Source of the DNA: Anaerolineae bacterium
GTDB lineage: Bacteria; Chloroflexota; Anaerolineae; Aggregatilineales; Phototrophicaceae
Assembly (NCBI GenBank): GCA_026645745.1
Contig: JAPKMU010000009.1
Location: 1 to 32,314, forward strand
Length of the DNA: 32,314 nucleotides
Direction: 5' to 3'
Made by a program: the position numbers and the translations under genes. Positions within the stretch are counted from its first letter, which is position 1. Every line of letters starts with the position of its first letter. Below are positions 23,646-29,630 of the stretch, in pieces. The notes beneath the pieces were generated by a model that was not told the origin of the DNA, ran no database searches, and saw only the letters and a program-made list of their open reading frames with translations.

Positions 23646-24650
23646 TTACCGCGCGATTGCGTTCATCTGCGCCTGAGCGGCTTTGTTTGCGTCGTCGCGC
23701 ATCCCCAACTTGGTGAAGATCAGCATCGCCTGATGAAACTTGCGCGATGCTGTCACACGCTGTCCACGCGCCATCAGGCTTTGCCCTTGCATAAACACCG
23801 TCCGCGCCATTTCACCTTCGGCTTTAATATCGCTGAACGCATCCACCGCAAGCTGAAAATACATATCAGGATCGCCAAGATGCTCGTTGGTTGCAGCGGC
23901 GTCATCTTGATGCATGGGCTGGATGCGCGGCGTACCGGTTGGCGTGTAGCCGACGGCGGTCAGCACCTCGCCCATCGTCCGATAGGCGAAGCCCAACATG
24001 AACGGCTGACGCGCCTTTTGTGAAAGCTGAAGCGACTCCAATGCGCAGCGCCATGCGGCGGTTCTCTCATCCACACGCAGATAATAGGTCGCCAACCCTT
24101 GATCACAGTCGCTCGTGACCTCGTCGCGTGTTTCTTCTTTCGACTCTTGCTTGACCAGCTCAATCGCCTTTTCAAAGCGTTCTTTCGCGCTTGCCAGTTG
24201 GTTCATTGACAGCAGCAGGTGTCCTTCATTCGCGGCGGCGTATGCTGCCGTGCTGTATTCGTTGATCGCATTCGCCTGTTCATAGGCGGTGCGAAAGAAC
24301 TGACGTGCGCGCGGAAAATCTCCCTTTTGGCGGTAGCTTTCGCCTAAGTTCATGATCGCCCGCACGATTTGCGCACGGTTTCCCGCGCGTTCGAATAAGT
24401 CGCGGGCGCGGGCAAAGTGGCGAACGCTGTAGTCAAGCTCGCCGCGATACCCGTACATCATCCCCAGCATATTTTCAACGATACCTTGATTGGCATAATG
24501 CGCGCTGCCGACCTGCTCCCGTTCCATATCGAGCAATGTATCAACGGCGGTTTTAAATACTAAACTGCCATTGTGCCAGCCGTCATAAACCGCATTGCAG
24601 CGTTCTTTAAACGCTTCATCCGGTTCTTGAGCAATCGTCGGTTGCGTCAT
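23646..24650 (-). CDS. TPR-repeat protein, paralog 2
   Basis: 334 residues, helical, cytoplasmic (no signal peptide). TPR-like units begin after ~50: QGIVENMLGMMYGYRGELDY, SVRHFARARDLFERAGNRAQ and IMNLGESYRQKGDFPRARQF, then a fourth around AAANEGHLLLSMNQLASAKE. A C-terminal block contains HLGDPDMYFQLAVDAFSDIK and TASRKFHQAMLIFTKLGMRD, which it shares with its neighbour. The upstream paralog (24673-25683) is similar over its full length with about half of positions identical by eye, so this pair is an old tandem duplication. The 22-base gap between them suggests one operon. The N-terminal part (FKERCNAVYDGWHNGSLVFK) is conserved in both. Function unknown; probably protein binding, perhaps in a signalling context. 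Confidence 0.85.
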   Translation of the reverse strand: MTQPTIAQEPDEAFKERCNAVYDGWHNGSLVFKTAVDTLLDMEREQVGSAHYANQGIVENMLGMMYGYRGELDYSVRHFARARDLFERAGNRAQIVRAIMNLGESYRQKGDFPRARQFFRTAYEQANAINEYSTAAYAAANEGHLLLSMNQLASAKERFEKAIELVKQESKEETRDEVTSDCDQGLATYYLRVDERTAAWRCALESLQLSQKARQPFMLGFAYRTMGEVLTAVGYTPTGTPRIQPMHQDDAAATNEHLGDPDMYFQLAVDAFSDIKAEGEMARTVFMQGQSLMARGQRVTASRKFHQAMLIFTKLGMRDDANKAAQAQMNAIAR

Positions 24651-24672: not shown

Positions 24673-25683
24673 CTAGTCTGCGATTGAATTCATCTGTGCT
24701 TGAGCGGATTTGGTCGCATCGTCTTTCATGCCCAGCTTGGTGAAAATCAAGGTTGCCTGCTGGAATTTGCGCGATGCGGTGACTTTTTGCCCGCGTGCGA
24801 GCAAACTCTTGCCTTGAACAAAAATCGTCCGCGCGATCTCGCCTTCCGCGCTGATCTTCCTGAACTGGTCAATCGACAATTGGAAATACATGTCAGGATC
24901 GCCGAGCGATTCATTCGTCGCCGCCGGATCAGACATATCGGGTGTTTCTCGCGGGGCGTTGTCCGGCGTTGTGCCAAGCGCCGTCAGGATTTCGCCCATC
25001 GTGCGGTACGCGCCGCCAAGCAGGAACGGTACATCTGCCTGACGCGCGACGTTGAGCGACTCAAGAGCGCACTCCCACGCCGACTGGGTATCGCGCTTCG
25101 CCAGATGGTATGTCACCATCCCCTGCTTCACTTGCGCGATCACCTGCCAGCGCCGCTGCTCGGTTACATCGGCGCGAGTGATGATCTCCTCGGCTTTTTC
25201 AAAACGTTCACGCGCCCCATCGGGTTGATCTTGCGACAGCAGCAGATCACCTTCGTTTGCGGCTGAAATCGCAGCGACACCGTGATTGCCGAAATAGATC
25301 GCTTGGTCGAACGCGGTGCGGAAGAACTGCCGTGCACGAACAAAGTCCCCTTTTTGGCGGTGACTTTCTCCGATGTTCAGCACGCACGCCAAGACGCGAT
25401 CCGGTCTGTTGGCGCGCTCGAACAAGTCACGAGAGCGGGCGAAATGACGGATGCTGCGGTCATAATCACCCCGGTAAGCGTACAACAGCCCAATCGTGTT
25501 TTCCGCATACCCTTGATTGGCAACTTGGGCTTCTTTCGCACCCTCCATCTCCAACTGCAAGAGTGAATCCATAGCGGTTTTATAGGCAAGATTTCCGCTG
25601 CTCCATCGACGAAAGACATCTTCGCAGCGCGCACGAAAATCCTCATCAACATCGAGCGGCTGAGGACTGAGAGGTTGCGTCAT
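24673..25683 (-). CDS. TPR-repeat protein, paralog 1
   Basis: 336 residues from the ATG at 25683; a GTG six bases earlier is in frame, but AAGGGG is better placed for the ATG. It is colinear with its downstream neighbour, with TPR units VANQGYAENTIGLLYAYRGD, SIRHFARSRDLFERANRPDR and VLNIGESHRQKGDFVRARQF. The shared C-terminal block reads LGDPDMYFQLSIDQFRKISA and TASRKFQQATLIFTKLGMKD. It is slightly longer in the first inter-repeat region. As the first gene of the pair it carries the promoter region (a TACAAT on the minus strand at 25736-25731 with no clear -35). It is likely an adaptor protein; no catalytic residues are seen. Confidence 0.86.
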   Translation of the reverse strand: MTQPLSPQPLDVDEDFRARCEDVFRRWSSGNLAYKTAMDSLLQLEMEGAKEAQVANQGYAENTIGLLYAYRGDYDRSIRHFARSRDLFERANRPDRVLACVLNIGESHRQKGDFVRARQFFRTAFDQAIYFGNHGVAAISAANEGDLLLSQDQPDGARERFEKAEEIITRADVTEQRRWQVIAQVKQGMVTYHLAKRDTQSAWECALESLNVARQADVPFLLGGAYRTMGEILTALGTTPDNAPRETPDMSDPAATNESLGDPDMYFQLSIDQFRKISAEGEIARTIFVQGKSLLARGQKVTASRKFQQATLIFTKLGMKDDATKSAQAQMNSIAD

Positions 25684-25810
25684 TATCACCCCTTAACTTT
25701 CGGTTACATCCCCTTAATGCTGACGACTATTGTATGACCATGCCCCTGAAGTTCCCACAATAGTTTGCAATAATTTTACGTAACCGTGTTGAGCGGGTTG
25801 CACAATGCCA

Positions 25811-25882: not shown

Positions 25883-27061
25883 GTGTGGCGATGGATGACT
25901 CTTGGCGTGATCGCGCTGGCGATTGTGCTGGTTGGCTTCAGTTTGGTCAACAGCACCGGGGACGCGCCTGTAACTGCGAGCGCTGTGTTGGGCGCGGCAA
26001 ATACGGATATTACCGGATTCACGCGGGCGGTCACCCCGCTGGCGTGGGAATTCCCGCGCGATTTTGGTGCGCACCCGGATTATCAAACCGAATGGTGGTA
26101 TTACACCGGAAATCTGCAAACTGACGACGGGCGGCGTTTTGGCTACCAGTTCACGATCTTTCGGCGCGGCATTGCGCCAGAATTCCCTACCTCAGCCGAT
26201 TCCGAATGGCGGTCAACACAGTTGTATATGGCGCATTTCGCCATCACCGACGCGGCGGGCGCGCGTTTCTTGCACGAAGAACGCTTCGCGCGCAGCGGTG
26301 CGGAACTCGCCGGAGCCGTTGTTGAACCAACCTACCGGACATGGCTCGAAGGCTGGCAGGTGATCGGACTGAACGCCGAAGCAACCGAGCGGCAGATTAC
26401 CGCCGCGATGACCTCAACCGAGGAAGGCGCAGCACTCGATTTGATCCTGTCCATCGTCAAGCCGCCCGCACTTCAAGGCGAAAACGGAGATGGCTTGAGC
26501 GCCAAGAGTTCAGACGAGGGAAACGCAAGCCATTATTATTCGCTGACACGGATGCCCACACGCGGAACGATCACGATTGACGGCGAAACATTCACTGTTT
26601 CCGGTTCATCATGGATGGATCACGAATTCAGCACGAGCGCGCTCGGCAGCGATGCGTTGGGGTGGGATTGGTTCGGCTTGCAGTTTGACGACGACCGCGA
26701 AATGATGCTCGGTCAAATTCGGCTGAACGACGGCGGACGCGACCCGAATTTCGGCGGCTTGCTGGTGAATCCTGACGGTTCAACGCGCTATCTACCCGCT
26801 GATTCATTTACACTCACACCCACTGGCACATGGACGAGTCCACATTCAGGTGGGGTATATCCATCCGGCTTTGAAGTTTCGGTGAACATAGGTGAGGCTG
26901 AACCCCTTTGGTTTACGCTCACACCGCTGCTTGCCGATCAAGAGCTTCACGGCGGTGGAATCGTGTATTGGGAGGGAAGTGTTCGGATCAGCGGCGATGT
27001 GACCGGATACGGCTATGTTGAGCTTACGGGCTATGTCGATGCGATGACGGGGCGGTTCTAA
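25883..27061 (+). CDS. AttH/CrtC-like lipocalin-fold protein
   Basis: 392 residues, starting with GTG (TGGGGTAAAC upstream supports it). An N-terminal membrane anchor or signal peptide (WMTLGVIALAIVLVGFSLVN) is followed by the family core. EWWYYTGN (70-77) and GSSWMDHEFS (241-250) are hallmarks of the AttH/carotenoid 1,2-hydratase (CrtC) group. Further typical parts are GYQFTIFRRG and LGWDWFGLQFDDDREMMLGQ. These proteins have two lipocalin-like barrels. CrtC adds water to carotenoid ends, but most AttH-like members are not proven enzymes, and no carotenoid genes are near. The acidic Asp in SWMDHE is the kind of residue used by CrtC-type hydratases. It ends in MTGRF, and that 3' sequence recurs downstream of the second Uma2 gene. 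Confidence 0.87.
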   Translation: MWRWMTLGVIALAIVLVGFSLVNSTGDAPVTASAVLGAANTDITGFTRAVTPLAWEFPRDFGAHPDYQTEWWYYTGNLQTDDGRRFGYQFTIFRRGIAPEFPTSADSEWRSTQLYMAHFAITDAAGARFLHEERFARSGAELAGAVVEPTYRTWLEGWQVIGLNAEATERQITAAMTSTEEGAALDLILSIVKPPALQGENGDGLSAKSSDEGNASHYYSLTRMPTRGTITIDGETFTVSGSSWMDHEFSTSALGSDALGWDWFGLQFDDDREMMLGQIRLNDGGRDPNFGGLLVNPDGSTRYLPADSFTLTPTGTWTSPHSGGVYPSGFEVSVNIGEAEPLWFTLTPLLADQELHGGGIVYWEGSVRISGDVTGYGYVELTGYVDAMTGRF

Positions 27062-27134
27062 TCGCCTTCTTGTTCGGCGTCCTGCTCAAAGCTGACTTTC
27101 TCGTATACGTCGCTCAACGCCAGCACACATTCGA
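27044..27134. repeat. 3' cassette repeat, copy 1
   Basis: This stretch covers the last codons of the AttH-like gene and the end of the first Uma2 gene. It is almost identical to 27705-27795 for about 76 bases (47 and then 26 identical bases split by one mismatch), after which identity declines. Confidence 0.85.
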
Positions 27135-27672
27135 TAGACGGCAGTTCGACCATTTGATCAAGCCCATAGATTACCGTGCTTGCCTTCGACCATTCGCCGT
27201 TCGATTCGCGTGTGAAACGCTCGATCACGGGGGTTGTTTGGCGAATCAATAAATAGTCGCGCAGCGTCGGGATCGTCTGATAAGCACGCCATTTTTTGCC
27301 GCGATCCATTGACTCTGAGGTTTTGGACATCACTTCAACGAGCAGTGTCGGGTTGGTGATCATCTCCATGCCCCGGCGCTGCTCGATCACGGGATCGCCG
27401 CACACCACGCTGACATCAGGATAAACGAACATCCCCGAAGCCGTTTTCACCATCATGTCACTAGAAAACAGACTGCATTTCCCGCCGTCGAGCTTGCGAC
27501 CCAAACTGATTAGCAAATTGGTGATAATGCGTGCGTGCGACAATTTGCCCCCCGACATCATGCGAAAGACATAGACCTCACCGTCGATGAACTCATGCCG
27601 ATCATCGCTGGCGGATTCCATCGCCAAGTATTCCTCGACCGTCCACTCTCGTTTAATCGGAAGCGTGCTCAT
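27058..27672 (-). CDS. Uma2-family PD-(D/E)XK nuclease-like protein, copy A
   Basis: 204 residues from MSTLPIKREWTVEEYLAMES. The ORF is open further upstream but this ATG fits the family's typical start. The nuclease core is EFIDGEVYVF, then YPDVSVVCGD (acidic metal ligand), LLVEVMSKTSESMDRGKKWR (E and K of the PD-(D/E)XK centre) and YLLIRQTTPVIERFTRE. All key acidic and Lys residues are present. The last 20-odd residues, ALSDVYEKVSFEQDAEQEGD, are identical to those of copy B. The stop overlaps the AttH-like gene's stop from the other side. Uma2 proteins are abundant in Chloroflexota and cyanobacteria; their cellular role is not settled. Confidence 0.92.
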   Translation of the reverse strand: MSTLPIKREWTVEEYLAMESASDDRHEFIDGEVYVFRMMSGGKLSHARIITNLLISLGRKLDGGKCSLFSSDMMVKTASGMFVYPDVSVVCGDPVIEQRRGMEMITNPTLLVEVMSKTSESMDRGKKWRAYQTIPTLRDYLLIRQTTPVIERFTRESNGEWSKASTVIYGLDQMVELPSIECVLALSDVYEKVSFEQDAEQEGD

Positions 27673-27704
27673 CGGTGCGTTCTTTCTCACTCTAACCAAT
27701 CCCA

Positions 27705-27795
27705 ATGACGGGGCGGTTCTAATCGCCTTCTTGTTCGGCGTCCTGCTCAAAACTGACTTTCTCGTATACGTCGCTCAATGCCAGCATGCATTCAA
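27705..27795. repeat. 3' cassette repeat, copy 2
   Basis: It contains the 3' end of the second Uma2 gene plus an extra ATGACGGGGCGGTTCTAA, the tail of the AttH-like gene although no such gene is here. It is offset by 661 bases from copy 1. Confidence 0.85.
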
Positions 27796-28333
27796 TCGAC
27801 CGAATTTCAAAAACCTGCTCCTGCCCCCGATAGATGATGCTGTTATCTGTCCATTCGGTATCGGCAGCGCGGCTGAAGTGTTCGATCTCAGCTTCATCTT
27901 GTTTGATCAAAAGATAATCGCAGAGGGACGGGATCGTTTTGTACTCTCCCCATTTTGCGCCACGATCATAAAACGCGGTTGAAGGCGAAAGCACTTCGAC
28001 AATCACCGTTGGGTTGAGTAAGGTGTCGCGGTGATCATCCCGAAGCTGAACATCGCCACAGACAACGATCACATCTGGAAAAGTCGCCAACTTGGAAGGC
28101 GTAAGCACACGCATACTTTCGACATAGACTTTACAAGCCTTACGCCGAAGCTGCGCGTGCAGTGACGCGAACGTGTTCCCGATGATTACATTATGTGCCT
28201 CGCTGCCGCCCACCATATCATAAACACGCCCATCCAGATATTCGTGTTTCTGTTGGCTGGCGCGATCCATCATCAGATACTCATCGAGCGTCCAATAATG
28301 GACGCGAGAGTCCAAGTGTGGCATTGCAGACAC
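27719..28333 (-). CDS. Uma2-family PD-(D/E)XK nuclease-like protein, copy B
   Basis: 204 residues. The GTG at 28333 is supported by GAGGAG eight bases before it; the ATG three codons in is too far. The core motifs are EYLDGRVYDM, FPDVIVVCGD, VIVEVLSPSTAFYDRGAKWG and YLLIKQDEAEIEHFSRA, all compatible with an intact metal-binding site. Outside the C-terminus it is only about 40% identical to copy A by eye, so the genes are old paralogs. The last ~25 residues and the DNA just past the stop are nearly identical to copy A, which suggests gene conversion or reuse of a 3' cassette. Confidence 0.92.
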   Translation of the reverse strand: MSAMPHLDSRVHYWTLDEYLMMDRASQQKHEYLDGRVYDMVGGSEAHNVIIGNTFASLHAQLRRKACKVYVESMRVLTPSKLATFPDVIVVCGDVQLRDDHRDTLLNPTVIVEVLSPSTAFYDRGAKWGEYKTIPSLCDYLLIKQDEAEIEHFSRAADTEWTDNSIIYRGQEQVFEIRSIECMLALSDVYEKVSFEQDAEQEGD

Positions 28334-28388
28334 AGGTATTTCTCCTCATCTCGCCCTGATTCCATTATGCCACAATCTGCCGCCGCGT

Positions 28389-29630
28389 TTACGCGCCAAG
28401 CGCCCACCGCAAAATCGTTTGCAGCAGCACATTCGCGCCGCGCTCGATGTCCTCCCATTCGGTGAACTCACGCGGACTGTGACCGATCCCATCGACTGAT
28501 GGGATGAAGATCATACCGGTCGGGGTGATCTGCGCGGTGAACTGCCCTGCATGCCCTGCATAGCTGATCAGCGGCATGGAGGGGATGCCAAAATCCTCAC
28601 AGACGGATTCAATCGCAGAAACAAAACCAGCCGACATAGAGGCGGCTGGCATGTGGGTGATCAATTCGTGACGGATGTCGAGAGCGTTGGCGGCGGCGCA
28701 TTCACGCGCAATCTGAAGGGCTTCGCGTTCCATCTCAACCATCAAGTCTTCTTGAACATGACGGAATTCGACGGTGCAGCACGCTTCACTGGGGATGATG
28801 TTGAACTTACCCGGCTTTACATCAACATCACCGCAGCTAAAAATGCCATCGCCGTAGCGGGCGCGCATGCTTTCGTGTGCCCGCACGATGAACAGCGCCG
28901 CACCACGCAGCGCATCACGCCGCTTATACATATCGGTTGTGCCGCTGTGTCCCGCTTGACCCAAAAATGTGATCTTGTGCGTCTTACGTCCGACGATTCC
29001 TGTGACGATACCAATTGGGCGGTGAGATTTTTCGAGGCGAGTGCCGTGTTCGATGTGCAGCTCAAGATACCCCGCCAGCGACTCAGGATCGCGCCGCGTT
29101 CCGAGTACCCGCTGCGCATCTGAGCCGACGCTCCGCAGCGCCGCGCGTAACTGCGCGTTATCGCGGCGGGTATCGAAAATATCTTCACTGGTGAGCACAC
29201 CGACGAATGCCCGCGCCCCAAACAGCGACGCATAATGCCCTTCGTCGTCGGTGAAGTTCATCGCTTCAAGTTTCACGGGGAGTTCGATGCCGGATTCGTG
29301 AATCGTGCGCAAGCATTCGAGCGCCGCTAACACCCCCACCGCGCCATCGAACCGTCCGCCGTCAGGGACGGTATCCAAATGTGAGCCGATCACGAGTGTG
29401 CGCGCGTTTGGATCTGCTGCATCCAAAATCGCGCTCAAATTTGCGGCGTCATCGTCATGAACGCGCAGCCCTGCTTCTTCGGCGCGATCAGCGTACCATG
29501 CGCGCGCATGAATATCGTCCGGCGTAAGCGCTAACCGTGTGACACCGCCGCTGCCATCACCACCCACTGCTGCCAATGCTTCAAAGTCGGCGCGCATTCG
29601 CTCGCCATTTACTGCGATTTGTCTGATCAT
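28389..29630 (-). CDS. M20-family amidohydrolase, allantoate/N-carbamoyl-amino-acid type
   Basis: 413 residues from MIRQIAVNGERMRADFEALA; an ATG five codons upstream (29645) is also possible. I rejected the much longer frame because it would start at the promoter. The two metal ligands are in GSHLDTVPDGGRFDGAVGVL (His and Asp), NFTDDEGHYASLFGARAF (D-E-G motif) and ELHIEHGTRLE. The dimer-domain hallmark G-R-K-T-H-K-I-T-F-x-G-x-A-G-H-S-G is present, and the last ligand is in the IPSVDGIGHSPREFTEWEDI region. This set marks the hydantoinase/carbamoylase subfamily that hydrolyses allantoate, ureidopropionate or N-carbamoyl-amino acids with two metal ions. The substrate is not decidable. It has no pathway neighbours, so it acts alone in nitrogen salvage. 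Confidence 0.9.
   Translation of the reverse strand: MIRQIAVNGERMRADFEALAAVGGDGSGGVTRLALTPDDIHARAWYADRAEEAGLRVHDDDAANLSAILDAADPNARTLVIGSHLDTVPDGGRFDGAVGVLAALECLRTIHESGIELPVKLEAMNFTDDEGHYASLFGARAFVGVLTSEDIFDTRRDNAQLRAALRSVGSDAQRVLGTRRDPESLAGYLELHIEHGTRLEKSHRPIGIVTGIVGRKTHKITFLGQAGHSGTTDMYKRRDALRGAALFIVRAHESMRARYGDGIFSCGDVDVKPGKFNIIPSEACCTVEFRHVQEDLMVEMEREALQIARECAAANALDIRHELITHMPAASMSAGFVSAIESVCEDFGIPSMPLISYAGHAGQFTAQITPTGMIFIPSVDGIGHSPREFTEWEDIERGANVLLQTILRWALGA

Follow-up and report, generated by a model that had tools for sequence, protein, structure and literature searches.

A displaced gene end beside a tandem Uma2 pair points to recombination between Uma2 copies in Anaerolineae

Two adjacent Uma2 family genes, here called u1 and u2, lie in a 32,314-nt stretch of DNA from an Anaerolineae bacterium (the window). 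Their bodies have diverged, while their 3' ends are nearly the same and continue past the stop codons into what is, at u1, the end of a neighbouring AttH-like gene. This arrangement raises the question of how the end of an unrelated gene came to stand beside u2, where that gene is absent. The AttH-like gene is convergent with u1, u2 and an M20-type gene, all three of which are on the minus strand, and its last 4 nt are shared with the end of u1 (u1 stop codon 27058-27060, AttH stop 27059-27061). As whole-protein matches, u1 and u2 both lie above the curated Pfam cut-off for PF05685 (27 bits). No known RNA element or tRNA was found in the window. Tandem TPR-protein paralogues with 57% amino-acid identity (23646-24650 and 24673-25689) also adjoin the AttH-like gene. 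The features of the locus are as follows.

25883..27061, plus strand: AttH/CrtC-like lipocalin gene (Pfam CrtC PF07143 and Lipocalin_9 PF17186), with homologues that have a conserved C-terminus
27044..27061, plus strand: native end of the AttH-like gene, its last codons encoding MTGRF before the stop
27044..27119, strand not applicable: repeat copy 1, the same as copy 2 at 74/76 bases, with weaker likeness to about 27139
27058..27672, minus strand: u1, Uma2 family gene adjoining the AttH-like gene (Pfam Uma2 PF05685, E 1.2e-28, 100.2 bits)
27140..27704, minus strand: u1 body and 5' spacer between the repeat copies, without close similarity to u2
27705..27722, plus strand: orphan copy of the AttH end, not preceded by an AttH gene
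27705..27780, strand not applicable: repeat copy 2
27719..28333, minus strand: u2, Uma2 family gene (Pfam Uma2 PF05685, E 2.3e-29, 102.5 bits)
28389..29630, minus strand: M20 family peptidase/amidase gene (Pfam PF01546)

The shared tail forms a direct repeat with an offset of 661, in which 27044-27139 matches 27705-27800 at 94% over 96 nt. The match at 74/76 over the first 76 nt bears out the roughly 76 near-identical bases claimed in a sequence-only reading of this DNA. The only mismatches within this part, at 27091 and 27118, are both silent when the codons are read by eye, and it is only in the relative sense of two changes in 76 nt that the event can be called recent, as that reading had it. 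The longest exact run between the copies is 47 nt, and the copies differ at several positions. Over their whole alignment u1 and u2 are identical at 49% of amino acids and 56% of nucleotides, and without the last 25 residues or codons at 41% and 50%; the last 25 codons alone reach 93% nucleotide identity. The earlier figure of about 40% identity is thus right for the genes outside the tail and too low for the alignment as a whole. The 3'-end identity is not a matter of chance: a permutation test on amino-acid-identical codons alone finds identical codons clustered at the 3' end (p = 0.003). Identical codons fill 13/14 of the last positions, silent sites included.

This identity extends 14 nt beyond the Uma2 stop, into the AttH scrap. 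Both copies contain ATGACGGGGCGGTTCTAA (27044-27061 and 27705-27722), and in copy 1 it makes up the last five codons and the stop of ORF 25883-27061, in agreement with the sequence-only reading. We read the ends of 19 AttH genes of relatives together with that of the window's AttH gene, 20 in all. MTGRF and a stop end 16/20 of them, with variants in the other four: MNGRF in L042, MRGRF in L045, MQGYF in L043 and, once the printed bases were followed on, LNGRF and a stop in L044. As the AttH C-terminus is conserved across relatives, the 18-mer has its native place in the AttH/CrtC-like gene, and the displaced copy is the one beside u2. These ends uphold the claim that the end of a foreign gene has been copied to a place without that gene.

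On the AttH side of the repeat, similarity ends at once at 27044/27705, and no similarity between the copies was found on the far side of the AttH scrap; on the Uma2-coding side it fades gradually within a conserved SIECxLA stretch (27118-27140). A near-identical tract that includes silent sites, with a drop outside it, is characteristic of gene conversion, but conversion also calls for homology flanking the tract on both sides, and the AttH far side is dissimilar. A tract with one homologous and one non-homologous end is instead the pattern of homology-facilitated illegitimate recombination. A simple recent tandem duplication would have left copies alike along the whole unit, whereas the bodies here have diverged. 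The common 5' spacer expected of a plain tandem duplication was likewise not found, the u1 spacer and the sequence upstream of u2 having no similarity (406/1000 shuffles were as good). In a search of the 5.66-Mb home assembly the tail occurs in two copies only, and the other 17 matches listed are stretches of at most 25 nt with E 0.9 or worse. The tail is therefore not a dispersed repeat, despite 15 Uma2 matches in that assembly, and the other Uma2 genes of the genome, where the earlier reading had proposed to look for it, lack it.

We consider it highly probable that Uma2 copies at a single locus recombined and left the shared tail as a scar, in a tract that passed beyond the Uma2 stop and on into the convergent gene overlapping it. 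The tract would have reached the AttH end because the convergent AttH-like gene overlaps the end of u1. Recombination among Uma2 genes had also been the explanation offered from the sequence alone, and it stands as the best one: adjacent Uma2 pairs of relatives are mosaic far above controls, and the ends of cinA and ilvD genes have been copied in the same manner. This reading does not depend on what Uma2 proteins do.

The neighbour-tail signature recurs with cinA in G113, G108 and, weakly, G099, and with ilvD in G120. At least 10 bases past the stop are common to both members in 8/54 terminal Uma2 pairs, window included. In L271 (G113:C6) a decayed 3' piece of cinA (residues 121-197, 79% amino-acid identity, with a deletion) stands after the first Uma2 copy, and after the second comes an intact cinA (Pfam PF02464) that is convergent with it, with overlapping stops. 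This second Uma2, beside the intact cinA, has an open frame of only 117 codons and looks like a broken gene. The cinA end is matched at 24/26 nt in L120 (G108) and at only 11/12 nt in L272 (G099); all three cinA cases belong to a single genus, and one old event may underlie them. The scrap in L263 (G120) derives from the end of an ilvD/edd gene (PF00920, residues 575-613), with 39 residues at 61% amino-acid identity and the last 34 nt at 33/34, and the Uma2 3' half is nearly identical between the copies. Judging from these identities, an old ilvD copy appears to have been partly refreshed along with the Uma2 3' half. In the remaining three of the eight sharing pairs (L247, L252, L259) the common stretch is intergenic flank. 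Where a convergent ORF lies at offset -4 to the terminal Uma2 stop, its tail follows the upstream copy in 5/7 pairs, a count to which the window was added by hand as overlapping, 257 nt having been taken after u1 in the scan; the convergent ORFs of the two exceptions, L114 and L245, are putative genes.

Mosaicism of Uma2 genes in the relatives is linked to adjacency. We compared adjacent same-strand Uma2 pairs of related Anaerolineae, chosen by eye among the matches listed, for clustering of identical codons among same-amino-acid codons, a test that sets protein-level conservation aside. Left out of the resulting 67 pairs are L117, which lies within L259; L080 and L083, with a single Uma2 apiece; L084, whose copies are separated by 9 kb; L122-L124, which are outside array regions or have a single gene; and L052, L067, L096 and L108, which are the same places as L081 and L082. 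Silent-codon patchiness is significant at p<=0.01 in 32/67 of these adjacent pairs among the matches listed, window included, and at p<=0.05 in 40/67. At p<=0.01 the corresponding counts are 0/148 for non-adjacent Uma2 pairs in the same genomes and 4/250 for cross-genus pairs, both controls being mostly less similar than the adjacent pairs; with 1/148 same-genome non-adjacent pairs above 60% amino-acid identity, the 0/148 contrast applies mostly at lower identity. Identity-matched cross-locus pairs, 14/159 of which are significant at p<=0.01, form a fairer and weaker contrast, and several of these 14 are orthologous arrays of sister species. Between 38 and 50% amino-acid identity, significance is reached by 1/6 adjacent pairs (the window alone), 0/129 same-genome and 4/230 cross-genus pairs. 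At least 15/20 bases past the stop are common to 14/64 adjacent pairs, against 7/159 cross-locus pairs. Genus g17 supplies 27/32 of the significant pairs. In 12 of these 32 pairs the patch runs to the stop, in 9 it begins at the 5' end and in 11 it lies inside the gene, so that patches are not limited to 3' ends. By the same test the TPR tandem pair of the window is not mosaic (p = 0.957), and the non-Uma2 tandem pairs in AttH loci and the window, this pair included, give 0/4 at p<=0.01 and 1/4 at p<=0.05, too few to settle generality.

As to how the window reached its present state, what we say of the succession of events, their direction and their enzymology is inferred. The most likely route, to which we give a little under an even chance, is insertion of the u1 body into a junction between u2 and AttH. 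The starting point would be a u2-type Uma2 gene adjoining AttH, between which a second, distant Uma2 body (u1) would have entered. Homology in the conserved stretch of 3' coding sequence near SIECxLA (27118-27140) may have anchored its entry, with the other side joined at the AttH end without homology, and the 96-bp piece comprising the AttH tail and Uma2 end would have been duplicated as a result. A single event, homologous at one end and non-homologous at the other, would account together for the 96-bp repeat and for the differences between the two spacers and between the two bodies.

The space between the AttH and M20 genes differs among genomes of the same genus. In G001 and G006 the two genes converge directly on each other across about 47 nt, with no Uma2 between them, and in G004 the gap has one different ORF on the AttH strand (L273:2032-2592), which we read, from its sequence, as Uma2-like. 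What varies at the AttH-M20 locus is thus its Uma2 content. With two Uma2 genes in the window, one Uma2-like ORF in G004 and none in G001 and G006, the gap looks like a repeated landing place.

The direction of transfer was approached through a tree of Uma2 bodies, from which the last 28 residues had been removed. In this tree u1 groups loosely with Uma2 genes of G001 and G006, a weak placement (87/84), and u2 lies elsewhere; the two come together in 10% of bootstraps. A 19-residue tail piece has a mean score of 72 against the 11 top relatives of u2 and of 48.6 against 8 members of u1's clade. The shared tail is of the YEKVSF type, as in the nearest relatives of u2; the weakly supported clade mates of u1 mostly have YRRVTF. 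These scores speak with moderate force for a tail and AttH junction of the u2 lineage and a u1 body that arrived later, so that the u1 body is probably the graft. As the direction, the "modular replacement of 3' ends" that had been proposed is unproven or unsupported. No DNA donor was found, the best body relatives being at 42-47% amino-acid identity for u1 and 47-54% for u2, nor did any close strain turn up in an intermediate state.

Nearly as likely as the insertion is an old tandem duplication that included the AttH tail, after which the bodies drifted and gene conversion later homogenised the 3' ends. While the bodies of u1 and u2 are not joined in the tree, an AU test does not reject them as sisters (p = 0.336). 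Both steps can be seen in L263, where a decayed ilvD fragment accompanies a near-identical terminal stretch, and the large cinA fragment in G113 is of the kind that duplication predicts; at the window itself, the dissimilar 5' spacers of u1 and u2 and a tail that is u2-like, not intermediate, argue the other way.

The direction given in the sequence-only reading, in which the 3' end of u1 converted that of u2 and the tract spilled into the AttH tail, is rather unlikely. AttH adjoins u1 today, which would make the u1-AttH junction the intact one, yet the YEKVSF tail is that of u2's nearest relatives and not the one prevailing among u1's clade mates, and a tract ending in AttH would also require a non-homologous join. 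An assembly or binning artefact is very improbable: the metagenome-assembled genome is a draft of 655 contigs, 86.9% complete with 4% contamination, but an artefact fits poorly with the differences between the repeat copies and with analogous structures in independent genomes. Least probable of all, and barely credible, is selection holding the 3' ends identical through a functional tail or a shared terminator, for although tail amino acids are partly conserved across Uma2, the silent codons are identical as well, the identity runs on past the stop into the AttH scrap, the 96-nt element is absent from the home genome's other Uma2 genes, and no terminator-like site was found at 26900-28450.

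Recombination among tandem paralogues is already known; the neighbour-tail signature and its recurrence are the new part. A survey of gene conversion among prokaryotic paralogues describes 26 genes, most of which belong to protein complexes, and regards long-lasting concerted evolution as rare (PMC6053082). Like those paralogues, the Uma2 genes have stretches within one genome that resemble each other beyond expectation, silent sites included; unlike them, they have short patches in diverged tandem genes, spilling past the stop into a neighbouring gene. Homology-facilitated illegitimate recombination has been proposed for immunity-gene arrays at Vibrio T6SS loci, which resemble the Uma2 locus in having a conserved anchor for incoming DNA with a non-homologous other end, and in arrays whose members are not sisters and which include displaced 3' pieces (PMC5361080). 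They differ in that the Uma2 locus has no effector/immunity module and that the scrap here is the end of a convergent, unrelated neighbour. Expansions of Uma2 (DUF820) to large paralogue numbers are described in Thermus and Thermosynechococcus, where the accessible portions of the reports give copy numbers and not mosaicism or neighbour tails (PMC1274311, PMC9403480). In PMC1274311 the mention of gene conversion falls in the reference list. No earlier report of mosaic Uma2 arrays was found among the papers listed in searches of an open-access library.

The Uma2 family, whose nuclease role is putative, has undergone strong expansion in several bacterial groups. Its Pfam label is "putative restriction endonuclease", u2 matches one solved structure only (chain 9y1l, E 8.4e-05), and proteins like u1 and u2 match the PADLOC candidate system PDC-S03 (5e-25 and 1e-22). 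If tandem Uma2 copies habitually recombine, Uma2 trees and orthology calls would be unreliable, and the family would have a fast route to diversification like that of known arms-race genes. A copied neighbour tail is a cheap marker of such events that can be read from sequence, marks the end of the exchanged piece and can be searched for in any genome. It is conceivable, if quite improbable, that Uma2 forms a self-diversifying tandem array, in which breaks close to the 3' ends would be favoured by the putative nucleases or by the layout of the array, and neighbours would trade segments, drag along the ends of converging genes and so shuffle candidate defence proteins.

Larger Uma2 arrays of three or four genes are present in L112, L115, L255, L257, L260 and L261. 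Some of their non-terminal genes share 3' ends and spacers, and the last gene differs past the stop, as unequal crossing-over would leave them. In L267 (G120:C39) an adjacent Uma2 pair is identical over all of its 178 aligned codons, with unlike flanks (6/20 nt past the stop).
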